Shown here: piece after piece, positions 9,986-40,957 of the stretch
How positions within the stretch are numbered: the stretch's first letter is position 1
How the letters are laid out: each line of letters begins with the position of its first letter
DNA from: Acidimicrobiales bacterium
GTDB lineage: Bacteria; Actinomycetota; Acidimicrobiia; Acidimicrobiales; SZUA-35
DNA length: 64,000 bases
Direction: 5' to 3'
Assembly: GCA_020630065.1 (NCBI GenBank)
Contig: JAHDCC010000005.1
Span: 107,934-171,933 of the forward strand
Notes under the pieces: generated by a model
The model's input: only the letters and a program-made list of their open reading frames with translations
What the model was told of the DNA's origin: nothing
The model's database searches: none
Position numbers and translations under genes: made by a program

Positions 9986-11176
9986 GTGCAGGACAACCCA
10001 ATACCGGCCGAGACCACAACTTTTTGGCGTGGTCTTGTCGGAATCCTTGTCATAGTGGCATTGGCGGTCACTGGACTGAATCTCTTCCGATACGGTCTTA
10101 CACCGTTTGACAGCGCCGGTTTAGAAGACCAGACTAACCCGGTCTCCGGTCCCGAGGCCACCGTGGCCGGTGATGATACGTCAACGACCCTGCCAATTCC
10201 AAATACCGATGAACTTTCCGCCCTAGTCTCAGGGCAGAACAACCAGTGGGTTGTCGGCCTTCAACAAAACCACCGTTTTACGCTGTCAGGGCAAATAGGT
10301 GATCAGCAAACCAAAGATCTGTTGGAAGAGTCGATGCGTGAAACCTACGGAGACTTGGCTACGAGTGAGCTTATCGTCAATCCACGTATCGAAGTAGCTC
10401 CATGGACGTTGTCGGCCTCCAACTTGTTTAAGGAAGTGGCGGCGCACATGATTGACGGCGGGTTCGCCATTGGTAACGGAGACGCCCACTTCGTTGGTAC
10501 CACCCCAAATCAAGCGAGCCGGACGACTCTAAAAGATGCACTGTCTGGAATCGAGCTAACACTGTTTGATCAACTCGAACTAGCGAACCTCAACAGCCCT
10601 ACCCTGTTGGCAACCCATAAGGACGGTCGGCTGTTCATGTCTGGACGGGTCCCCAATCAAGACACACTCGACGAACTCACCCAATCGGCGACTGATCTCT
10701 ATGGCGCGGACAACGTAACCAGCAACCTTCTAGTCGACAAAACCACCTTTGCCCCAATCGCCTTGGCCCGATGGCAAGAGAACCTTGTTTTGTTTTTTCC
10801 TTTTGGCGATTATCGAATCCAAATTATGGATGGGACGTTCACGGGAGAGCTTCGAGGAGGACTGGTATTTGAACGGGGTTCTGCTGATTTAACCGAAGAA
10901 GGACGAGAATTCTTAGATATATTTCCAACGATCATTAACCGGTCAAATGGTCAGGTTACCGTTCTGGGACACACTGACAATTCCGGCTCTCAGGCCCTCA
11001 ACCAGAGCCTTAGTCAGCGACGGGCTGAAGCCGTAACGAACTATCTGATTTCTAAAGAAATCCCTGATGAGCGTATAACGGCAGAAGGAAAAGGCGATAG
11101 TGATCCGACGGCCTCTAACAACTCAGAAGAAGGGCGTCAACAAAACCGGCGCGTTGAGATTGTTGTCTCGCCGTAG
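9986..11176 (+). CDS. OmpA-family protein with BON-like repeats, ArfA-like (copy 1)
   Basis: 396 residues from a GTG start. A single N-terminal membrane helix (residues about 17-33) anchors the protein. A central region with two BON-like segments follows, each containing a RETYG- or DLYGADNV-type motif. The C-terminus is a peptidoglycan-binding OmpA domain: SADLTEEGREFL, VLGHTDNSG, LSQRRAEAV and NRRVEIVV. The order helix-BON-OmpA matches mycobacterial ArfA (OmpATb). It probably links the membrane to the cell wall. A paralogue follows directly downstream. Confidence 0.85.
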   Translation: MQDNPIPAETTTFWRGLVGILVIVALAVTGLNLFRYGLTPFDSAGLEDQTNPVSGPEATVAGDDTSTTLPIPNTDELSALVSGQNNQWVVGLQQNHRFTLSGQIGDQQTKDLLEESMRETYGDLATSELIVNPRIEVAPWTLSASNLFKEVAAHMIDGGFAIGNGDAHFVGTTPNQASRTTLKDALSGIELTLFDQLELANLNSPTLLATHKDGRLFMSGRVPNQDTLDELTQSATDLYGADNVTSNLLVDKTTFAPIALARWQENLVLFFPFGDYRIQIMDGTFTGELRGGLVFERGSADLTEEGREFLDIFPTIINRSNGQVTVLGHTDNSGSQALNQSLSQRRAEAVTNYLISKEIPDERITAEGKGDSDPTASNNSEEGRQQNRRVEIVVSP

Positions 11177-11354
11177 CCGTATCAGCGGTTACTCAACCGT
11201 ACCGACGCATGTTGCACCCGTTTGAAACAAATTTCACCAGATAAAATGGGCTGGTCGGCCCCGGCGTGGAGGCTGATGAGGGCCCGATAACTGCTTGGTT
11301 GTTCCCACAGACAGGATTGGGCCTGCTGGCTTCAACCAGGGGGCGGTTATTGTC

Positions 11355-12569
11355 ATGCAGGACACAAAGACCGAGAACAACACTTCGAAACAATCAGTGA
11401 TTAGTAAGAAGACTTGGTTATCGATTATTGTGGCGTTAACTATCGGTGCTGTTGGTGTCCTAACTCTAAATCTGAATCGGTACAATCTCCCACCGTTCTC
11501 CGATCAGGTAGCGGCCCAAGCGAGCCCGGCGGCTCCTGAGTCAACGACCTCAACGACTACCCAGGCGATTGACCCAACCCAGTTTCCGTCTACCGATGAC
11601 TTGGAAGAGCTGGTTTCGTTGGACAACAATTCTTGGCTAGCAGCGCGTCAAGAAAACTTCCGATTTACCCTGTCAGGTGAAGTTCCCGACCAGGAAACTA
11701 AAGCACTCATCGAGACTGCGATGCGCGAAACATACGGTAATTTCTCTCTGACCAACATTACCGTGAACCCTTCGGTTCTGGGAGGAAGTTGGTTCGAGTC
11801 GTCGCCGTCGCTGATCAAAACATTCGCCTCTCAAATCATCGATGGTGGCTTCGCTTTGCGAAATGGTCGTCTACATTTCGAAGGTCAGGTAGCAAACGAT
11901 GCCAATGTCAGCACGCTTCAAGGCATGTCGACTCTGCCTGGTATGCCTCAAAGCATCGAGGCGACGTTGGAGGTGACGGGCCTACGAAACCCGGCGATCA
12001 CGGCAACTCGGCGGAGTGACAAATTGTTCCTGCTAGGTTTTGTCCCCTCCCAAGAAATCGCCGACGAAATCGCTACTGCGAGTGAAGACCTGTACGGAGC
12101 CGAGAATGTCTCCAACAATCTTTCGGTCGATGACACGACTTTTGCCCCGTTTGCTATTGCTCGTTGGCAAGAAAATCTGACTGCGTTTTTCCCGTTTGGA
12201 GAGTACAAAATCGAGATAAAGGGCGGCAGTTTCTCGGGAGAGCTACGAGGTGGGCTGGCCTTTAGTCCTTCGTCATCCGATCTCACTCCTCAGGGCGAAG
12301 CGTTTCTCGAGGTCTTTCCGAGCTTAGTTAATCGCTCGAACGGCCAAATCTCGGTAGTCGGCCACACCGACAACTCTGGCACGTTTGACACCAATCTGGA
12401 GCTGAGCCAACAGCGGGCCGAAGCAGTCGGCGCCTTCTTAACCGAAAACGGTATCTCAGAGGACAGAATAGTGGCTGTAGGCAAAGGCGATACTGAGCCG
12501 ACCGCTTCGAACGCCACCGAAGAAGGCCGGCAGCTTAACCGCCGAGTCGAAGTTAAGTGGGTTATCTAG
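11355..12569 (+). CDS. OmpA-family protein with BON-like repeats, ArfA-like (copy 2)
   Basis: About 404 residues, a tandem paralogue of the preceding protein with the same architecture: a start beginning MQD, one membrane helix, the FRFTLSGEVPDQETK and MRETYGNF segments, the DLYGAENVSNNLSVD segment and a C-terminal OmpA domain with GHTDNSG and NRRVEVKW. ATG 11355 is preferred over 11295 because it aligns with the start of copy 1. The 178-bp gap between the copies contains no gene and could hold a separate promoter. Divergence between the copies suggests an old duplication. Confidence 0.82.
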   Translation: MQDTKTENNTSKQSVISKKTWLSIIVALTIGAVGVLTLNLNRYNLPPFSDQVAAQASPAAPESTTSTTTQAIDPTQFPSTDDLEELVSLDNNSWLAARQENFRFTLSGEVPDQETKALIETAMRETYGNFSLTNITVNPSVLGGSWFESSPSLIKTFASQIIDGGFALRNGRLHFEGQVANDANVSTLQGMSTLPGMPQSIEATLEVTGLRNPAITATRRSDKLFLLGFVPSQEIADEIATASEDLYGAENVSNNLSVDDTTFAPFAIARWQENLTAFFPFGEYKIEIKGGSFSGELRGGLAFSPSSSDLTPQGEAFLEVFPSLVNRSNGQISVVGHTDNSGTFDTNLELSQQRAEAVGAFLTENGISEDRIVAVGKGDTEPTASNATEEGRQLNRRVEVKWVI

Positions 12570-12687
12570 TACACGTTTGCTAGTCGGTCGGTGTCATAGG
12601 CTGGCTCTATTATTGGCGTGTGTATGTTTTTAGAACCGTGCGCTTCGCAGCTTGGGCTGCCTGTAGACCCTAGTTCTCAGGAGTGTC

Positions 12688-13125
12688 ATGAAGACCTCAG
12701 CCCTGCCCACTTCAGTATCAACGTTTCGCGAAGCTCTTGGCCTCGCGTTTGAACTTGACGATCTTTCCCCAGACCAGACATTTTCTTTGCACCTCTCCCC
12801 GACTGGGGCAGTTGAAAACGTGGTGGCGATATCCGAGATATATTCACCGCAAACGATAGAGCGGCTCTTGTCCCGACCCGCCAGCCGCTGGCTACTTATC
12901 ACTAGCCTTGACGTTCCTCTCGGACCTGTTCTTCGTTCAGATACGTTGTGGTTCTCGTTCCTCAGTTCTATCGCCCAGGTGAGATTCCAAACGTTGGTGG
13001 ATTGGATTGTCGTCGATGGGGAGGACGCCAGGTCGTTCGCTTATCTGACGTCGCCTGAGACAGCCTGGGTCGACGACCCTGCTGAGGTTCGTCGCCACGA
13101 CTACATCAACATGGCGGCCAGCTGA
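12688..13125 (+). CDS. Small RadC/JAB-like protein without metal ligands (tentative)
   Basis: 145 residues with an AGGAG site 4-5 bp before ATG 12688. I do not recognise it with certainty. The C-terminal half reads like the end of a RadC (JAB/MPN) domain: a Pro-Leu-Gly turn, an Arg-Ser-Asp motif followed by a helix, and then TLVDWIVVDGEDARSFAYL, which parallels the LLDHIIIG strand of RadC. The HxH pair that binds zinc in RadC is absent (the corresponding stretch is TSLDVPLG). If the relation is real it is a non-catalytic remnant. It could also be an unrelated actinobacterial orphan. Confidence 0.55.
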   Translation: MKTSALPTSVSTFREALGLAFELDDLSPDQTFSLHLSPTGAVENVVAISEIYSPQTIERLLSRPASRWLLITSLDVPLGPVLRSDTLWFSFLSSIAQVRFQTLVDWIVVDGEDARSFAYLTSPETAWVDDPAEVRRHDYINMAAS

Positions 13126-13140
13126 GCGGCACCCAAGATA

Positions 13141-14151
13141 TTACTCTACTGAGGCGTCCATCGGCGTGGTTTGTGTCAGCGAAGCTGCCTCTTTACGTAC
13201 CCGAAGCTCAGAGAACACGATTGCGAGCAGAAGCAGAATTCCGATCACGATCAACGATGACCAAGGGCTCCATGGCAGGTGCCAGTCGAGCCACAGGGCA
13301 GCCATTTTTAGGCCGACGAATATGAGTATGAACCCGAGCGCATGATTTAGGTAATGGAACCGGTCACGGGCGTCAGCGAGGAGAAAGTACATTGCCCGCA
13401 GACCAAGGATGGCAAATGCGTTCGACGACAACACTAAGAATGGATCTTGAGCGATCGCTAGAATTGCGGGAACCGAGTCAAGCGCAAAGACAACATCGGT
13501 TGCCTCCACTACTACCAACGCCGCTAGTAGCGGGGTCGCAGCCCGTTTACCGTTCTGCATTGTGAAGAACTTCTGCCCATCCAACGCATCACTTACCGGC
13601 ATTATCCGGCTGAGGAGACCAAGGCCCGTTGTCGCAGACTTTTCGCTTTCGTCTTCGGTGTGGCGAATCATGCGTATACCGGTGAATACGAGAAAGCCGC
13701 CAAATATCACAAACAGCCAATTGAACTGTTGGAGAAGCTCCGTTGCGCCAAAGATAAAAATCGCCCGCAAGGCTAACGCTCCGAAGATGCCCCAGAACAG
13801 TACCCGATGCTGGTACTTCACCGGTATCGACATGCTTGAGAACAACATGGACCAAACAAAAACGTTGTCGACGCTCAGAGATTTCTCGACCAGATACCCG
13901 GCTATGTACTCGCCGAACGCTTCAGAACCGTAGGCAACCCATACAAAACCAGCGAAAGTTAAACCACACGCAACCCAGAACAGTGATTCTTTAGCCGACT
14001 CGGAGAAGGTGGGAACATGAGCCTTACGGTGTCTGTACAAATCGATCGCAAGTAGGGCTACGATTACGACCCCTAAACCTATCCATGCCGTCGACCCTGC
14101 GGGGACGTCAACAAAGTTCTTTTCAGCCTCACTGGCGGCCAGAATACCCAT
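13141..14151 (-). CDS. TerC/Alx family integral membrane protein
   Basis: About 336 residues from ATG 14151, with about nine hydrophobic segments. Signatures of the family are the DLYRHRKAHVP loop after the first helix, LVEKSLSVDNVFVW with its acidic membrane residue, and VVEATDVVFALDSVPA with paired Asp residues near the membrane. Alx-type members export manganese; others are linked to tellurite resistance. AGAGG lies upstream of 14151. The open frame continues to 14253, but that extension is not needed by the fold. The gene is convergent with the RadC-like ORF and divergent from the hydrolase gene. Confidence 0.88.
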   Translation of the reverse strand: MGILAASEAEKNFVDVPAGSTAWIGLGVVIVALLAIDLYRHRKAHVPTFSESAKESLFWVACGLTFAGFVWVAYGSEAFGEYIAGYLVEKSLSVDNVFVWSMLFSSMSIPVKYQHRVLFWGIFGALALRAIFIFGATELLQQFNWLFVIFGGFLVFTGIRMIRHTEDESEKSATTGLGLLSRIMPVSDALDGQKFFTMQNGKRAATPLLAALVVVEATDVVFALDSVPAILAIAQDPFLVLSSNAFAILGLRAMYFLLADARDRFHYLNHALGFILIFVGLKMAALWLDWHLPWSPWSSLIVIGILLLLAIVFSELRVRKEAASLTQTTPMDASVE

Positions 14152-33984: not shown

Positions 33985-35703
33985 CTACCTAAACGATCGG
34001 GCTGAACGGTTGGCGTAGAGCCGTCGTTCGTTGGCTTCAAATTCGTCTAGCGGGACGGGTAACCCTAACGCGTAGCCTTGGCCTACGAGAATGCCCAGTT
34101 CGCGACATACCGCCAGCTGTCGTTCGTTTTCGAGCCCTTCAGCTAGTGCCGCTATTTCGAGGCCTGACATGGCTACGAGCAGACCTCGGATTATTGATCG
34201 AGCGGCGTCGCCTTCTGATGTTCCGGCGAGGGCGGCCGCCCGTATTAGTGCCGGAGCGATCTTTAAGCCTCGAACTGGAATGGTTTGTAGGTATTCGAGT
34301 GCGTTGTAGCCGACACCGAAATAGTCTAGGGCTACTGGCACGCCAGCGTCGGCGAGTACACCTAGCGCTTCGGTTACTCCTACCCCTTTTTGGAATTCCC
34401 AGTCTTGGACTTCAAGTATGATGTCGGATCGCTGCAGGTGGTTGTTGGCGAGCGCGTCCGTGTGGAGGTCGAGGTATCCGGCTAGCAGCAGCTGGTTTGG
34501 GTCGATGTTTATCGATACTGACTTGTCGAAGAAGTATGGCCATCTGGCCCTGAGGCTTGCCCATTCTGCTGTGACGGTTGCGAGGGTCCATTCGGTAAAC
34601 CCTTTGACGTGTGCAGCGTTGTTAGCGACGGACAGAATTTCGCGTGGCCGGATTGGGCCAAGCTCTTCGTGGTCCCATCGCAGGAAGGCTTCTGCTCCTA
34701 AAATTTCGAGGTCTTCTAGGCGTCTGACGGGCTGGTAGACGAAGCGAATGTCGCCGGCACGCCATGCTGGTTCGAAGTCTCGTTCGATGCAGAGCCGGCG
34801 GGAAAACCGTTCGCGGCTGGTTTGTGACGCCACTGCTATGTCGCTTTGAGAAAGGTGTTTGGTGGCTTTGGCTTCGTACATCGCTTGGTCGGCTTCGCCG
34901 ATGAGCTGTTCGGCGGTCAAACCAACAGCGGTATCGAATGCGACTCCGATGCTTACTTGTGGCGAAAGTTCTAGCTGGCCGGTTCGCACCGGTCTGGTGA
35001 CGACTGCTTTGAACCGTCGGGCTAACGCTAGGGCGGTTCGCCCGTAGGGTCCGGCGTCTGCGATTACTAGGAACTCGTCTCCGCCGAGTCGGGCTACTAC
35101 GTCGTCGTCTCGTACACAGTTTTCGAGGCGCTGTGCGACGGCTCGGAGAATGCCGTCACCGGCTTCGTGCCCGTAGGTGTCGTTTACTTCTTTAAAGTCG
35201 TTTAGGTCGAGAAACATTACGGCGAGGGGTTTTGCGGATGTGTCAGCGAGTCTTTTGTTGAGTTCTTTGATGGCGCATTCCCGCATCATGAGACCGGTGA
35301 GCGGGTCGTTTGTTTGGTTTTCGGTTCTGCTTTCGTCGAGGTCGACGATTACTCCACGAACTTCTGGACCGTCTTTGGAGGGTTCGATGGTGGCGACTAC
35401 CCAGAAGCTACGTCCAGTTCTAGCGGGGGTGTCTTTGAGGGTTACGACGCAGGTGCCGCTTTGGGTTTCGGTGGTTGATACCCGGATGAGGTCTCGGAGT
35501 GTTTGCCTGCTGTTTGAGGTGAGGCTTCGCCATACCCATTCGCCTACTTGTAGGCCCATACTGTCGGCGAAACTGTCGTTTGTGTAGGTTAGGCGGCCTG
35601 AAGCGGTGCAGGCAAAGACACCGACGGTGGAAGAGTTTAGCTGTCGGGCAATGTCGAATGTCGAGGGTTCGTCAAGACAGTCGTGTCCTTGAAATGAGGT
35701 CAC
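33985..35703 (-). CDS. PAS-GGDEF diguanylate cyclase with degenerate EAL domain
   Basis: About 572 residues from GTG 35703. An N-terminal PAS-like domain (VGVFACTASGRLTYTNDSF) precedes a GGDEF domain with an intact active site (RLGGDEFLV) and an inhibitory RxxD site five residues before it. The EAL domain is degenerate: EAL reads EAF, the DDFG motif reads DYFG, and the LKID motif reads LKIA. It probably makes cyclic di-GMP and uses the EAL part for binding rather than hydrolysis. The open frame extends upstream through a terminator and an antisense tRNA, so the longer form is rejected. No strong ribosome-binding site is visible. Confidence 0.82.
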   Translation of the reverse strand: MTSFQGHDCLDEPSTFDIARQLNSSTVGVFACTASGRLTYTNDSFADSMGLQVGEWVWRSLTSNSRQTLRDLIRVSTTETQSGTCVVTLKDTPARTGRSFWVVATIEPSKDGPEVRGVIVDLDESRTENQTNDPLTGLMMRECAIKELNKRLADTSAKPLAVMFLDLNDFKEVNDTYGHEAGDGILRAVAQRLENCVRDDDVVARLGGDEFLVIADAGPYGRTALALARRFKAVVTRPVRTGQLELSPQVSIGVAFDTAVGLTAEQLIGEADQAMYEAKATKHLSQSDIAVASQTSRERFSRRLCIERDFEPAWRAGDIRFVYQPVRRLEDLEILGAEAFLRWDHEELGPIRPREILSVANNAAHVKGFTEWTLATVTAEWASLRARWPYFFDKSVSINIDPNQLLLAGYLDLHTDALANNHLQRSDIILEVQDWEFQKGVGVTEALGVLADAGVPVALDYFGVGYNALEYLQTIPVRGLKIAPALIRAAALAGTSEGDAARSIIRGLLVAMSGLEIAALAEGLENERQLAVCRELGILVGQGYALGLPVPLDEFEANERRLYANRSARSFR

Positions 35704-35805
35704 TTTATGGTATCGACGTCTAATTCTTGAACTTAAAGGGTTCGGGGTTGCGCTTTGAAAGCCGTTTTGTGGAGTGGCGACGCCTTTACTGTCCGCCAAA
35801 ACGTT

Positions 35806-35843
35806 AAACGCCCTGGCCAGAAGAATCTGATCAGGGCGTTTCG
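35806..35843 (-). terminator. Intrinsic terminator of the initiator tRNA gene
   Basis: AAACGCCCTG and CAGGGCGTTT form a perfect 10-bp stem beginning 6 bp past the tRNA 3' end. On the minus strand it is followed by a T-rich stretch (TTTAACGTTTTGG). The position and shape are those of a tRNA-gene terminator. Confidence 0.8.
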
Positions 35844-35848
35844 TAGTG

Positions 35849-35922
<74 letters not shown>

Positions 35923-36003
35923 GAGTGGATAGACAATGTTAGCGCAGCTGAAGTCAAAGACAACAGCTTTACACAAAAGACTTGCGTTATTTAGGGAAAA
36001 ACA

Positions 36004-36035
36004 TTACTACGGCCAGCGGGGGCTGGCCGTAGTAA
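36004..36035 (-). terminator. Strong intrinsic terminator of an unassigned minus-strand transcript
   Basis: A perfect 14-bp stem (TTACTACGGCCAGC and complement) with a 4-nt loop. On the minus strand it is followed by TGTTTTTCCC, a proper T-tract; on the plus strand there is none. Coming from the right, the first coding sequence I can support is the 34-codon ORF at 36199-36303, whose start lies within about 300 bp, so a short transcript probably ends here. Confidence 0.85.
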
Positions 36036-36041
36036 ATAAAT

Positions 36042-36182
36042 GGCTCGAAGTAGCCGGATCAATGCTAGGTCTACTTTGTCCGGGTACTTCGAGCCGAGTA
36101 TGGAGACACGAAGCATCTCTCATACACGTCCTCGAGAAGTTCCCCCCCACGACTACGGCGGATAATCGCAGAGCTTCGAGGA
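36042..36182. repeat. Two nested inverted repeats in the short-transcript region
   Basis: GGCTCGAAGTA (36042-36052) pairs with TACTTCGAGCC (36085-36095), extended by CCGG/CCGG after one mismatch. TCCTCGAgAAG (36129-36139) pairs with CTTCGAGGA (36174-36182) with one bulge. Together with the adjacent terminator this makes the 160-bp stretch highly foldable RNA. A second small ORF (38 codons, ATG 36123 with GAGGA 5 bp upstream) runs through it, but its end lies in the terminator stem and I do not call it. Confidence 0.6.
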
Positions 36183-36198
36183 TCGATCTAATTGGTGT

Positions 36199-36303
36199 CT
36201 ATCCCCAACCTGCCATCCCACCGATAACACCTGCAGGTCCGAGTAACGTGACAGCTGCAGTACAGGTGGAAATAACGATGAGCTTTATATGTGTGCGAGA
36301 CAT
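36199..36303 (-). CDS. Candidate 34-residue hydrophobic peptide gene
   Basis: A short ORF, ATG at 36303 and TAG at 36199-36201. The product has a basic start (Arg3, Lys7), a hydrophobic run with one Cys (LIVISTCTAAVTLL) and a Gly-rich tail ending GGMAGWG. It looks like a small membrane or exported peptide. Support is contextual: two perfect 7-bp direct repeats with 11-bp periodicity lie 47-64 bp upstream, a weak -10-like AATCAT follows 8 bp after them, a purine-rich GGAAAGAAG precedes the ATG, and a strong terminator lies downstream. It is on the same strand as the SARP-type regulator gene ending at 36474. No homologue is known to me. Confidence 0.45.
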   Translation of the reverse strand: MSRTHIKLIVISTCTAAVTLLGPAGVIGGMAGWG

Positions 36304-36349
36304 AGTGAAACTTCTTTCCGGTTGGTGATGAACTTATGATTGTCCATGC

Positions 36350-36367
36350 GTGTCTCGCCAGTGTCTC
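36350..36367 (-). promoter_or_regulatory. SARP-like heptamer direct repeats
   Basis: On the minus strand GAGACAC occurs at 36361-36367 and 36350-36356 with a 4-bp spacer, an 11-bp period. Heptamer repeats on one face of the helix, about 8 bp before the -10 hexamer, are the known binding architecture of SARP activators such as ActII-ORF4 and DnrI. A further GACA lies 10 bp downstream (36341-36344), and GGGGACAC occurs in the opposite orientation at 36397-36404. The gene for a SARP/BTAD regulator ends about 107 bp away. Confidence 0.55.
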
Positions 36368-36473
36368 AGATTCGTAATTCTGAAGGCCCAGACTTCGGGG
36401 ACACAGGACAGAAACCACCGCTGACCTGGTAAAACATCCAATTTTTCTAGTCAGATAATTCTGGATATTTTCT

Positions 36474-39400
36474 TTATTTAATTACGTTCGAGGCCCGAAG
36501 ACTCACCAGATCTCGCTTGATTGTCCGCTCGCTCACCCCTAAATATTGAGCCAAATCACTTATCCGAGGCGAGGCACCTTGCAGAGAGGCTTCCGACCAA
36601 ATCCGAACTAGACGACATTGGCGCCTATCGTTCTCAAGATCGATCTCCCAATCCGAGGGTTCAGACAACGTGAGGTCCACTTCGACATCAAGCTCGTCTG
36701 ATGATTCAGACCCTGCACGTGGCAGGAAAATCCGCTCCACGATGGGAACCAACCGCTGGTAAGCCTCCCGAATCGCCACATGAGTTGGAACTTTCTCCCA
36801 AGCCATAGCTCTACGGGAAGCATCCAAGCCCTCCAGGTTGTCAGACAACCACTTAAACGCGAGTTTGGTCTGGGTGTGTCGACCTTGCTCGTCGCCCAAA
36901 CACTCATAAACCTCAGCCGCTCTCCAGGCGCTGTAATGAGAATAACAATGATCCGAAGAAGTAGTCTGGGCCTGTTCGACTATCTCCTTGGCCTCATCCA
37001 TTCGACCCAACTTGGCTAGCGCCAACGACTTTATGCCTAGAACTATGGGCGCCATTCCAAGCATATTTATTCCTTTAGAACAGGCAAGAGCACGCTCGGA
37101 ATAAGCCAACGCTTTGTTGTAGTCAGCAAGTTGAAGGTGGACTTCGCATAGCGCAATCAGCACTTGCACTTCCGACCAAGGTTCATCGATGACTTCTTTG
37201 CGATTTACCGCGTCGGTTAACATTTTCTTGGCTTTCGATTTCCTTCCGCTACGCATGTCAATCCCAGCCAAGGTATCGAGACACAAGACTTCAAGACGTG
37301 TGTCCTCAACACTGCGGAAGAAGACAGCAGCCTTTGTCGCTAGTTTTTTAGCTCGCTCATCATCTCCGATCAACCGGTGGCTGATACCAGCAATATTCAA
37401 TTCTGCTATTGCTTGACCCCGATCCTCAGACAAGACCGGAATGAGGACAAGGGCCGCCTCAAAGAACTTGAGAGATAACGCCCCCTTACCAACCAGCCCG
37501 TGAGCCATCCCCAAATTGACCAAGCTGACGGCTTCTCCTCTTAGGTAACCAATTTGTTTCGATAACCTGTAGGACTCCTCATATAGCTCAACCCCTCTAT
37601 CACCAGTCCCCTCGTACATGTACGTAGAAGCTTCAGCAGCCAAGGCGTCAACCCGAAACCTTAGGTTCTCATTCGGTTGAGCGAGCACCGCAGCCTTTTC
37701 CAAGACCCCTTTAGCCTCGTCAAACCGTTGACGGTCGATCAACGCCTTCGCCAACCAGATAGAAGGCTCAGAAGACGAAATACCAGCCTCGCTCAGCTCC
37801 TCGACCGCCTTCGTCAACACGTCAATAGCTTCAGAAGGATTACCACTCCAGAAAAGAGACGCCCCAGCGTAAGCCCGAATCTCCCCACACTGTTGCCCCA
37901 ACTGCTCAGCCCGAGCAATAGCCGCCTTCGAAACCTCAGCCGACTCCTCATAGCGCGAAGTGTGAGCCAACAACCGAACCCGCCTCAGCTCCACCTCGAT
38001 ACGCTGCTGATCGTCCAAATCCAGCGGCTCAAGCCGTTCAAGCAACTTCGACTGATCGTCCCTCTGAGCCAGAACGTCCAACGCGTCCTCGTACTTCATC
38101 AAATCGTCGAACCAGTCCAACAACGTTAAACCCAGTTTGGTCGCCGCCTGATCAGCAAAATCGAAATGGGTACGCGCCGTCTTATATGCGTGAAGTTTAA
38201 GGTCAGCCAACGCCGCCCGACGATGAAGATCAAACGCCTCCTCCCACCTACCCGCCTGCCAAGCGTGAGTACCGAGCAACTGATCGGTTTCGCCCCCAGC
38301 CGAACTCAACGAATCAAACACCTGGCCATGTAACTGACGGCGACGCTCAGGCTCAATCTGCTCATAAACCAGCCGCCGAATTTCTTTATTAACAAAACGA
38401 CAGCCGTCAATCGACTCAGCCAAAAACCTTGACCTGACCGCTTCATACATGTCGGCCATCGCCAAATCACGCGGCACATCCAAAAGCCGGGCCACCAATT
38501 TCGAACCCGTAGGCTCGTTCAAAACCGCTAGAAGTTCAAGAATGCTGCCAACACCAGAACCCGCCAGTTCGATGCGTTGACGAACCACCTCAGTCATAAC
38601 GTCGGCCGCCACCAACTCCATCTCGGAATCACTAACCAACTGGCGACTCAACAACTCCGGATGTTCCAAAACCTGAATAGCGAACATAGGGTTGCCGTGA
38701 ACGACGTCGAGCAGCTTCTCCGAAGCCGACGAAGATAAACTCACCGGACCAGTATGAGAAGCGATCAGACGCCGCATATTTTCGTCCGACAACGGTTCAA
38801 GCTCATAACGCGCCACCCCACTCAACCGGGCAAGTTCAGTAATAGTTTTACGAATCGGCTCAGAATTCTGGGCCTCCGACCGTCGGTACGTCAAACAAAG
38901 CAGAATCCCGCTGTCTGCTAAATCCTTACTCAGAACCTTAAGCGCCCCCATAAGCTCGTCATCAGCCCACTGCAAATCCTCCAGAACCACAACCGTAGGT
39001 TTGAGCCTCCCAAGCGCAAGAACAACCCGAGCCAACGCCTCAGCGGCCCGCCAGCCCTCCTCATCGCCTTTCAACACCGTCGGACTAGGCCGGTTCCGCT
39101 CATCAAGCTCAGCCCCGAACCTAGGGATGAACTTCTGAACCTGCGTCACCCACAACGGGTCTAACAACTCGGCGACATGTTCACCCCTCAAACCGTCACA
39201 CGACGGCGCAATCGCCTCACACAACGACCCGTACGGCATCCAACGGCTTCGCTCGTTATGGTTCGCTGAAATAACGTCAGCGCCCCTCCAGCGGGCGCCT
39301 TCGGAAAGCTCATCGATCAGACGAGACTTGCCCATACCGATCTCGCCCTCAAGAAGCACCAGGCCCCCACGCCCGGCGATCAGCTCCTCGACCCTGGTCA

Positions 39401-40304
39401 ACAAATCAGCTAAAACCTGGGCCCGACCAAGCAACGGTTCAGACGAAACCGCAGTGTCCGGCAAACCGCCAACCGAGGTTTCACGTTCAACCCGTCTAAG
39501 CAGCTCTTTCGTTTCCGTCGACGGTTCAACATCCAACCCTTTACGAAGCGCTTCACGGCACAACTCGTACTGCCGCTTCGCCCCGCTCACATGGCTCGTC
39601 AAACCACACAACCGCATCACCTCACGATGCGACTCCTCCCGCAACGGGTCGGCGGCAACCAGCTGACGGGCGTGCCGAAGCGCCGCGTCATAGTCACCAT
39701 AGTTCTTGAAATTCTTGACCAACATTTCCAACGCGTCAAGATGCCGGGCCGCCAGACGAGTTCGTTCGAAATCAATCCAGTCGCCGTAATAGCCAGCCAA
39801 AAAATCGTCGTACTCGGTAACAACTTCCGCCAACTTGGCGACCGCCGTAGGCTCACGCAACCCCGAATCCTGGTTACGTAAACGGTCCTCAAAGTCATCC
39901 AAGCGACTGTCAAACAGCTCGCTATCAACAATGACAACAATGTCAGGACGCAGCGAAACAGTTTCTTTCTGCCGAATCAAAACCGATTCCGAACCCGCCT
40001 TATTACAGGCCGAACCGATCTGCCACAGTGCGTTACTCAACCGCCTCCGGGCCTTAGCTTCATCAAGATCCGGCCAGAACTGACCAATAAGCAAATCACG
40101 GGTATGTTGACGATCCCGGTGGCAAATCAAATACGCCAAAAGAGAGATCGCCTGCCGGCCAGGAATCGTCCCAACCATGTTCTGCCCGATAGACAGCGTG
40201 AAACCACCAAACATCTTCACGATGATGGTTTCTCCCAAAGAGCTAGCGGCGGATTTCGTATCTACTTGGTGGACTCCGCCGAGTTCCGAAGTTGAGTCCC
40301 CCAT
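36474..40304 (-). CDS. Giant SARP-type regulator: winged helix-BTAD-AAA ATPase-TPR-HTH
   Basis: 1,276 residues. Order: OmpR/PhoB-like winged helix (about 26-110), BTAD helical domain (about 125-275), P-loop ATPase with Walker A GEIGMGKSR (320-328) and Walker B VVVLEDLQWAD (438-448), a long TPR-like helical region (about 600-1190), and a second HTH at the extreme C-terminus (AQYLGVSERTIKRDL). The first four parts match AfsR/LAL-like SARP regulators; a DeoR-type HTH as the last element is unusual, since LAL proteins end in a LuxR HTH. It starts 8 bp after the msrA stop, so the two may be co-transcribed. Its likely local target is the promoter at 36350-36367. Confidence 0.85.
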   Translation of the reverse strand: MGDSTSELGGVHQVDTKSAASSLGETIIVKMFGGFTLSIGQNMVGTIPGRQAISLLAYLICHRDRQHTRDLLIGQFWPDLDEAKARRRLSNALWQIGSACNKAGSESVLIRQKETVSLRPDIVVIVDSELFDSRLDDFEDRLRNQDSGLREPTAVAKLAEVVTEYDDFLAGYYGDWIDFERTRLAARHLDALEMLVKNFKNYGDYDAALRHARQLVAADPLREESHREVMRLCGLTSHVSGAKRQYELCREALRKGLDVEPSTETKELLRRVERETSVGGLPDTAVSSEPLLGRAQVLADLLTRVEELIAGRGGLVLLEGEIGMGKSRLIDELSEGARWRGADVISANHNERSRWMPYGSLCEAIAPSCDGLRGEHVAELLDPLWVTQVQKFIPRFGAELDERNRPSPTVLKGDEEGWRAAEALARVVLALGRLKPTVVVLEDLQWADDELMGALKVLSKDLADSGILLCLTYRRSEAQNSEPIRKTITELARLSGVARYELEPLSDENMRRLIASHTGPVSLSSSASEKLLDVVHGNPMFAIQVLEHPELLSRQLVSDSEMELVAADVMTEVVRQRIELAGSGVGSILELLAVLNEPTGSKLVARLLDVPRDLAMADMYEAVRSRFLAESIDGCRFVNKEIRRLVYEQIEPERRRQLHGQVFDSLSSAGGETDQLLGTHAWQAGRWEEAFDLHRRAALADLKLHAYKTARTHFDFADQAATKLGLTLLDWFDDLMKYEDALDVLAQRDDQSKLLERLEPLDLDDQQRIEVELRRVRLLAHTSRYEESAEVSKAAIARAEQLGQQCGEIRAYAGASLFWSGNPSEAIDVLTKAVEELSEAGISSSEPSIWLAKALIDRQRFDEAKGVLEKAAVLAQPNENLRFRVDALAAEASTYMYEGTGDRGVELYEESYRLSKQIGYLRGEAVSLVNLGMAHGLVGKGALSLKFFEAALVLIPVLSEDRGQAIAELNIAGISHRLIGDDERAKKLATKAAVFFRSVEDTRLEVLCLDTLAGIDMRSGRKSKAKKMLTDAVNRKEVIDEPWSEVQVLIALCEVHLQLADYNKALAYSERALACSKGINMLGMAPIVLGIKSLALAKLGRMDEAKEIVEQAQTTSSDHCYSHYSAWRAAEVYECLGDEQGRHTQTKLAFKWLSDNLEGLDASRRAMAWEKVPTHVAIREAYQRLVPIVERIFLPRAGSESSDELDVEVDLTLSEPSDWEIDLENDRRQCRLVRIWSEASLQGASPRISDLAQYLGVSERTIKRDLVSLRASNVIK

Positions 40305-40312
40305 ATGTCCAA

Positions 40313-40957
40313 TTATCCCTGACTATAGGCCACCTGGCAAAACCCATGATTGCAATACCCATTTGGGTTCTTAGCCAAATACTGCTGGTGGTACTCCTCG
40401 GCATAGTAGAACTCGCCTGCCAACCCCACCTCGGTCTCAATAGAACCGAAACCGGCATCAGCCAACATCGACTGGTACTTGTCAACCGACGAACGAATCA
40501 ACTCAAGCTGCGACTCAGACGACGCAAACAACGCCGACCGGTACTGACTACCGATGTCATTACCTTGGCGATCTTTCTGAGTCGGATCGTGATTCTCCCA
40601 AAATATTTTCAACAAATCATCCAACGCCACCCGATCAGGGTCGAACACAACCAGCACCACTTCGGTGTGGCCAGTACGACCAGTGCACGTCTCCTCATAC
40701 GTCGGATTCGGAGTCGTACCCCCGGCGTATCCGGCCGCCGTCGTGTACACGCCCGGCACCGTCCAAAACAAACGTTCCACACCCCAAAAGCAGCCCATTC
40801 CGACAATCAGCTGGTCGGAATTCTCTGGAAACGGTTCGACCATCGACGACGAAAGAACCAAATGTTGACCACTGATCTCCAGCGGTGTCGACCGGCCCGG
40901 CAACGTAGCCGCCTGGTCGCCTGAAGATTGTTTACGAGACAGAAACCGTGAAACCAT
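40313..40957 (-). CDS. msrA: Peptide methionine sulfoxide reductase A
   Basis: 214 residues. The catalytic motif GCFWG is at about residue 57, followed by [25 protein letters not shown] and [21 protein letters not shown], which are diagnostic for MsrA. Near the C-terminus GYCNHGFC supplies candidate resolving cysteines. It repairs the S-epimer of oxidised methionine. The first 40 residues are a non-conserved extension. The upstream spacer contains a long terminator-like hairpin (41012-41070); the giant regulator gene follows 8 bp downstream. Confidence 0.95.

Follow-up and report, generated by a model that had tools for sequence, protein, structure and literature searches.

Does a very large actinobacterial regulator switch on the gene of a short peptide and then sense that peptide itself? 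The question is raised by a 64,000-nucleotide stretch of an Acidimicrobiales genome (GenBank assembly GCA_020630065.1, contig JAHDCC010000005.1, positions 107,934 to 171,933; hereafter the window), in which the minus strand carries, in this order, a SARP-type regulator, a heptamer repeat, weak -10-like hexamers, the purine-rich site GGAAAGAAG, a 34-codon open reading frame (ORF), a structured stretch and a terminator. The two adjacent genes probably form a peptide-pheromone system in which the regulator is the receptor and the signal is autoinduced. Directly seen are a conserved gene pair, a signal-like leader, clade-specific tails, the heptamers, purifying selection among relatives and, on the transcript predicted for the window's family, a structured RNA. 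Because the pair recurs in distantly related actinobacteria and the peptide begins like a secretion signal, it is likely to be a cell-to-cell signal, and from this pattern we infer export, processing, re-import, binding and a quorum function.

The regulator and the short gene beside it

The regulator (36474-40304, minus strand, 1276 aa) has orthologues in the family, class and phylum and consists, by Pfam, of a SARP-type N-terminal half with BTAD (57.6 bits against a cut-off of 22.1), AAA_16, a TPR array (TPR_12, TPR_2, TPR_8, TPR_19 and TPR_14 above cut-off) and a DUF1670/HTH C terminus. With BTAD, NOD/AAA and TPR all present, it is of the large SARP type by domains. The N-terminal winged helix has no Pfam row of its own; the regulator profile matches the AfsR chains 8k60/8jke over positions 3-315, and modelling predicts a helical TPR structure for the TPR region. 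MalT does not occur in the 50 rows listed of a second-look alignment, which carries no weight as evidence. Within its own genome the regulator matches one other stretch only (25% identical, E 3e-5), and there are two BTAD matches in all. The second BTAD protein of the genome is a 972-aa frame (L126, G000:C28:47272).

The peptide gene, MSRTHIKLIVISTCTAAVTLLGPAGVIGGMAGWG, occupies 36199-36303 on the minus strand (34 codons plus stop), behind the ribosome-binding-like site at 36311-36319. An intrinsic terminator, a 14-bp stem followed by the T-rich run TGTTTTTCCC / TGTTTTT, lies at 36004-36035 on the same strand. An earlier note on this DNA had read all these features from the letters, together with two GAGACAC heptamers and a weak AATCAT hexamer, and each was recovered where it had been placed, with the BTAD, AAA ATPase and TPR parts of the regulator confirmed by Pfam.

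Orthologues were sought among 148 relatives. In the window's family, 18 of 39 genomes carry it at E <= 1e-60, 15 of them with downstream DNA; among the two candidates scored per genome it was found in 35 of 395 genomes from the class (E <= 1e-150) and 26 of 396 from the phylum (E <= 1e-120), ten of these 26 (L105-L114) having a shorter paralogue that served as a control. A single-protein scan of the genome-contig collection found no relative; a profile scan of that collection gave 31 loci, the last five weak, of which 17 were read downstream, the others being cut by a contig end, duplicate or weak. Orthologues lie in genomes titled Acidimicrobiia/Acidimicrobiales, Nitriliruptoraceae and others, and most listed relatives are 1,219-1,325 aa long. 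We scored the 57 loci with readable downstream DNA that remained once duplicates (judged by eye and used once, for example L064 = L005, L066 = L015, L101 = L076 and L124 = L100) and loci with a contig end before or just after the regulator had been removed. The latter are L017, L021 and L023 in the family, L041, L053, L058, L060, L061, L102-L104, L115, L125 and L127 outside it, and places without a locus number in the class-wide search.

A peptide was required to have 24-42 codons, K or R near the start, a hydrophobic core, no acidic residue at positions 2-14 and a Shine-Dalgarno (SD)-like site, a rule set after the first peptides had been seen. It is passed by 55 of the 57 loci, with a basic start, hydrophobic core and SD site and lengths of 28-36 aa. 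Of 435 other downstream stretches, ten pass, three of these being the cassette of regulator and peptide gene itself, entered by way of a shadow ORF; of 1,140 shuffles, 49 pass. The remaining two loci have leader-less ORFs of 7 and 9 aa, counted from starts that we assigned. A conserved short hydrophobic ORF downstream of such regulators, which the earlier note had suggested looking for, is hence present at nearly all loci. Regulator and peptide are separated by 56-291 nt (median 121), and the start codons are ATG 50 times, GTG five times and TTG twice. Among paralogous BTAD-AAA-TPR and Chloroflexota loci, 16 of 23 had at least 250 nt downstream; none of the 16 has a peptide candidate or the exact heptamer pair. 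The peptide is also missing from the Chloroflexota relatives L078 and L081.

Substitution patterns also point to a gene. In 13 locus pairs of our choosing, pooled, pS is 0.353, pN 0.096, pN/pS 0.271 and dN/dS 0.215, and the same bases read in the other two frames give pN/pS of 1.34 and 2.68. The synonymous-site bias whose absence, by the earlier note, would have spoken against the reading is thus found among relatives; no pair includes the window's own ORF, since the nearest relatives of its regulator, 79% and 52% identical, were found as proteins only. Judged by these patterns, the peptide ORF is coding.

Four genomes (G224, G343, G406 and G423) hold two cassettes each; in one the tail is of the NWG type, in the other it is VVNIR. 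The cassette also occurs in a named species: a regulator with Egicoccus halophilus as its source name shares 99.9% identity with the one whose neighbouring peptide ends in SPAFA followed by the tail GIKNMGL. Egicoccus halophilus is in culture, and a test of the idea would not require growing the window's host.

Tails, operator and what the peptide does

Ala-X-Ala followed by 3-9 residues closes the peptide at 39 of the 57 loci versus 4 of 435 controls. The tails, cut at the last Ala-X-Ala (in several rows by our own reading rather than the script's), are mostly 5-7 residues long and differ by clade. One group has SISDMS, SVSDMS, SGSLMS and SIGNMT, another ILRPGH, IWRPGHN and TWKPGHG, and a third DGVWGG, NGDWGV, DANWGN and NVNWGT; further groups have AVVNIR and AVLNML, TGDFHR, or GIKNLGL, GIKNMGL and GVANLGF. 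In the window's family, where the point of cleavage is harder to make out than in other clades, relatives end in HTFMG, VVFMG, VGWMG, QTFLG, PVWMT or VTFMN. The window's own tail, GMAGWG (codons 36202-36219, minus strand), is the predicted mature signal by analogy with relatives having a clear Ala-X-Ala; the cut after VIG is the script's choice, and its exact site is unsure.

The tail is duplicated in L015 (TVDFMTVDFM) and L016 (TVDFLTVDFL), both copies carrying the same difference. At L056, M-LRPGH-GPS stands directly behind a strong SD site, and the peptide of its sister L052 ends in PALA followed by ILRPGH; L018 reads MSVTFMP, whereas its relatives end in VTFMG or VTFMN. L056 and L018 look as if the leader had been lost and the tail kept, although an assembly error is possible. 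L018 also has a longer frame, the start of which does not resemble a signal. Its regulator, in genome G014, is on a long branch, and two genomes of the same genus are without the regulator, which suggests a decaying or rewired copy. A search of the 39 family genomes with the peptide profile gave no other match at E < 1e-5, weak ones starting from 2e-3; this profile and the RNA model described below necessarily match the loci they were built from, and what is informative is the absence of others.

Between the two genes lies the predicted operator, GAGACAC-TGGC-GAGACAC (36350-36367, minus strand, 11-bp period), the sole exact GAGACACN4GAGACAC in the window and absent from 100 dinucleotide shuffles. 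With three mismatches allowed, the pattern is found 5 times against 6.6 expected, no more than chance, so only the exact pair is significant. SARP sites are direct repeats 11 bp apart with the 3' repeat 8 bp from the -10 element (PMC10936776). The 11-bp period is present here, and AATCAT (36341-36336, minus strand) starts 8 nt after the second heptamer, the spacing SARP promoters require, but it makes a poor -10; GACAAT (36344-36339) is an alternative candidate. No sigma-70-type promoter passes a promoter scan.

Conservation of the heptamers, which the earlier note likewise required, holds in part. A pair lies between regulator and peptide at 37 of the 57 loci at shuffle p <= 0.05, and in the exact form GAGAYAN5GAGAYA at 17 of them; 20 loci lack a significant pair, namely six of seven in clade f82-B, all three in f78 and 11 scattered ones, several of which look like degenerate pairs. 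The seventh f82-B locus, L118, passes, with its pair abutting the start codon. The f82-B loci without a significant pair (L116, L117, L119, L121, L123 and L054) and those of f78 (L062, L063 and L120) keep the peptide, and their operator must therefore differ. Across 22 carrier genomes, picked by hand, the exact form occurs 21 times, in 17 genomes: 16 times at the cassette (assigned by us from coordinates), twice less than 2 kb ahead of the regulator (in G753 and G537) and three times elsewhere; the reversed pattern occurs three times. The window's own genome has two exact heptamer pairs, the second inside an 825-codon frame. Since the exact pair is almost confined to the cassette, the regulator's clearest predicted target is its own peptide gene, as for an autoinduction loop, and the operator is nearly private. 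Binding to the repeat is predicted from the repeats, and the earlier interpretation, that the regulator controls a small exported or membrane peptide, is supported. The two upstream pairs, 1.4-1.7 kb from the regulator (L164, G753:C1:83321; L157, G537:C1:740167), are possible second targets; by eye, one precedes a tyrosinase-like gene and the other a frame with a membrane-like start.

A pheromone circuit built from these parts would run as follows. Basal peptide would be exported by Sec and cut near Ala-X-Ala to the tail, which would accumulate and be re-imported by an oligopeptide transporter. The imported tail might then bind the groove of the regulator's TPR superhelix and thereby switch the AAA/STAND module in an ATP-dependent manner, upon which the SARP half would dimerise on the 11-bp repeats and synthesis of peptide and RNA would rise (positive autoregulation). 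Output to other genes could pass through the structured RNA, degenerate operators or the C-terminal HTH. That the TPR region may sense the peptide is consistent with the structural model and with the two tail-only loci. The cassette gives each receptor a concrete candidate ligand, short enough to synthesise.

Among the 51 peptides compared, from all but six of the 57 loci, tail distance correlates weakly with receptor distance, and not specifically with that of the TPR part (rho 0.15 for TPR, 0.15 for AAA, 0.06 for BTAD and 0.22 for HTH); leader distance gives rho 0.35 with TPR distance. This counts against simple co-evolution of tail and receptor, or else the tails are too short or saturated to show it.

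Weak co-divergence would suit another kind of product: a small peptide, exported or in the membrane, that is switched on by the regulator but has its site of action elsewhere, at the envelope or on other regulators, and to which the regulator itself does not respond. AfsR of Streptomyces, the closest genetic layout, provides the precedent: it switches on afsS, a small gene next to its own, by way of 11-bp direct repeats close to the -10 element (PMC10972967, PMC10936776), and its SARP-NOD-TPR architecture is shared by our regulator, which matches the AfsR chains. The earlier note, whose author knew of no system of this form, had overlooked this precedent for the layout. As a point of difference, AfsR is phosphorylated by Ser/Thr kinases, and AfsS is likened here by layout, not by sequence. 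AfsR's TPR sensor domain is termed tentative, and the word "ligand" is absent from the main text of PMC10936776. We consider an effector of this kind unlikely, given short clade-specific tails behind a signal-like leader, a tail duplication whose two copies show the same difference, and two loci that keep only the tail, which would not be expected of an envelope effector deprived of its leader.

A slightly less probable proposal is that the peptide reports Sec export or the state of the membrane and that the regulator senses its unprocessed form inside the cell, with no communication between cells. The anatomy would be identical, and the peptides of the two leader-less loci would act within the cell. 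Clade-diversified tails, and two different tails in the same genomes, are more in line with specific recognition than with a sensor of export in general.

A structured RNA behind the peptide gene

Downstream of the ORF, in a region that the earlier note left undescribed, 36000-36200 (terminator included) folds with z = -7.6 into three minus-strand hairpins and the terminator: H1 (36127-36185), which holds a CCGCCG motif, H2 (36098-36125) and H3 (36042-36095), with about 20 pairs and CCTAGC in its apical part. The evidence for H1 and H2 is the folding of single sequences, that for H3 fold and alignment; MAFFT aligned the window's RNA poorly with its relatives, and RNAalifold recovered only H3. 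The 180 nt after the ORF fold significantly in all 14 testable family loci (z from -3.1 to -10.4). Overall, z is below -3 in 30 of 56 loci (L014, at a contig end, was left out), and in just one of the 52 controls, which were taken 300 nt beyond.

All 12 aligned family sequences carry CCGCCG and CCTAGC unchanged, in an alignment without L018 and L019; L018 keeps CCTAGC (13 of 13 rows) but not CCGCCG, and L019 has neither and does not match the RNA model. In the H3 stem, 11 of 16 pairs have changes on both sides among 13 sequences, a value reached in none of 500 shuffles, which do not preserve relatedness. Among the candidates scored (144 first-look candidates per genome), the H3 model matches at E < 1e-5 at cassettes only, in 13 of the 39 family genomes, those from whose loci it was built; weak matches elsewhere in the 39 begin at 5e-4. 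Among a capped number of candidates scored, three of 248 genomes from the order match at E <= 1e-4: two cassettes and G040 (6.3e-5), the sole match outside the window's family. Only tRNA reaches the Rfam 15 gathering score in 35700-36600, and likewise in eight relatives.

Folds this strong, invariant motifs and paired changes could mean that the RNA is the main product, a regulatory one with the ORF as its small coding leader. This is improbable, as the ORF also occurs in clades where the RNA is not strongly structured (z between -0.9 and 0.9 in L037, L038, L039, L057 and L096) and the RNA model is nearly restricted to the family. Several other clades have little structure after the ORF, and the RNA can instead be an addition in the window's lineage, possibly the output of the pheromone system. 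Least of all can the ORF and repeats be chance, which conservation already refutes: control stretches and shuffles do yield such ORFs at the low rates given above, but 55 of 57 loci have one, selection is purifying and the exact repeat never arose in shuffles.

More tentatively, one transcript in the window's family might carry both a pheromone and an effector RNA bearing two conserved loop motifs, and the TPR ligands of large SARPs might be self-encoded peptides. If so, quorum information would leave the circuit as RNA in this family, and Actinomycetota would have an unrecognised peptide language. The agr RNAIII of Staphylococcus is likewise a transcript under quorum control that codes for a small peptide and is at the same time a structured regulatory RNA. 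Its peptide is not the agr pheromone, which is produced elsewhere, whereas the predicted pheromone itself sits on the cassette RNA.

Known peptide systems and the gene neighbourhood

Propeptide pheromones with intracellular TPR receptors are described from Firmicutes and their mobile elements, actinobacterial signals being typically small molecules (PMC10075063). In the RRNPP(A) systems (Rap-Phr, NprR-NprX, PlcR-PapR, Rgg-SHP, PrgX and AimR), propeptide and cytoplasmic TPR receptor genes are adjacent, and the propeptides have basic, hydrophobic and C-terminal parts, with the signal usually in the last four to ten residues and with intragenic duplications; RRNPP_detector allows gaps of -60 to 400 bp, propeptides of 10-100 aa and receptors of 250-500 aa (PMC10075063). 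The cassette resembles them in its adjacent genes, tripartite propeptide, TPR receptor and tail duplication (L015, L016), and its gaps lie within that range. It agrees with RRNPP in size, adjacency and TPR, but not in receptor length (1276 aa versus 250-500 aa): its receptors of about 1,270 aa carry a SARP DNA-binding half and an AAA/STAND module. It also differs in being found in Actinomycetota rather than Bacillota or phages, in its heptamer promoter and in the 3' structured RNA of one family. Owing to receptor length and phylum we do not file the cassette as RRNPP, although it would work like one. Actinobacteria, SARP, AfsR and MalT go without mention in a paper on RRNPPA evolution (PMC9765709).

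Leaderless communication peptides act through RopB in Firmicutes (PMC10518010); the short signals without leader at two loci here are similar, but phylum and receptor family differ and the leader-less form is rare (2 of 57). For Actinobacteria, a 2016 review describes cyclic or modified peptides and gamma-butyrolactones and had found no quorum-sensing reports for Acidimicrobiia and Nitriliruptoria (PMC4748050). No literature title linking SARP/BTAD regulators to a peptide signal was found in a search that left most subscription papers and all bioRxiv preprints outside. On our best reading, the cassette would be an RRNPP-like scheme with a SARP/STAND receptor in actinobacteria.

A conserved operon with signalling genes was considered and rejected, as neighbours differ between loci: they include PAS-GGDEF-EAL proteins, histidine kinases, trypsin-like and subtilase proteases, glyoxalase, LPG synthase and others. 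Toxin, bacteriocin or ribosomally synthesized and post-translationally modified peptide readings were set aside by judgement, the tails being very short; no such genes were seen among the scanned neighbours, in which no search aimed at them was made. At L066, whose cassette has the duplicated tail TVDFM, the first long ORF downstream (10938-13619) encodes a second NB-ARC/AAA-TPR protein.

Beyond the terminator lies a tRNA gene (35920-35847). The mechanical start of a PAS-GGDEF-EAL protein (33985-35976, minus strand) runs through it, so the true start probably lies downstream of the one called. Immediately ahead of the regulator, on its upstream side, the window's family has a methionine sulfoxide reductase (PMSR/msrA-like) gene, found by Pfam at L064 and L066; the window's ORF at 40313-40957 (minus strand) has the same position, as read by eye. 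Met is present in many tails of this family. Two further elements were noted by eye in the window and in L005-L013: between the regulator stop and the heptamers, a TGTCCCCATGGTTTGTCCC-like element in opposite orientation (36397-36410, minus strand), and right behind the stop, a CCTGGTCAG motif.
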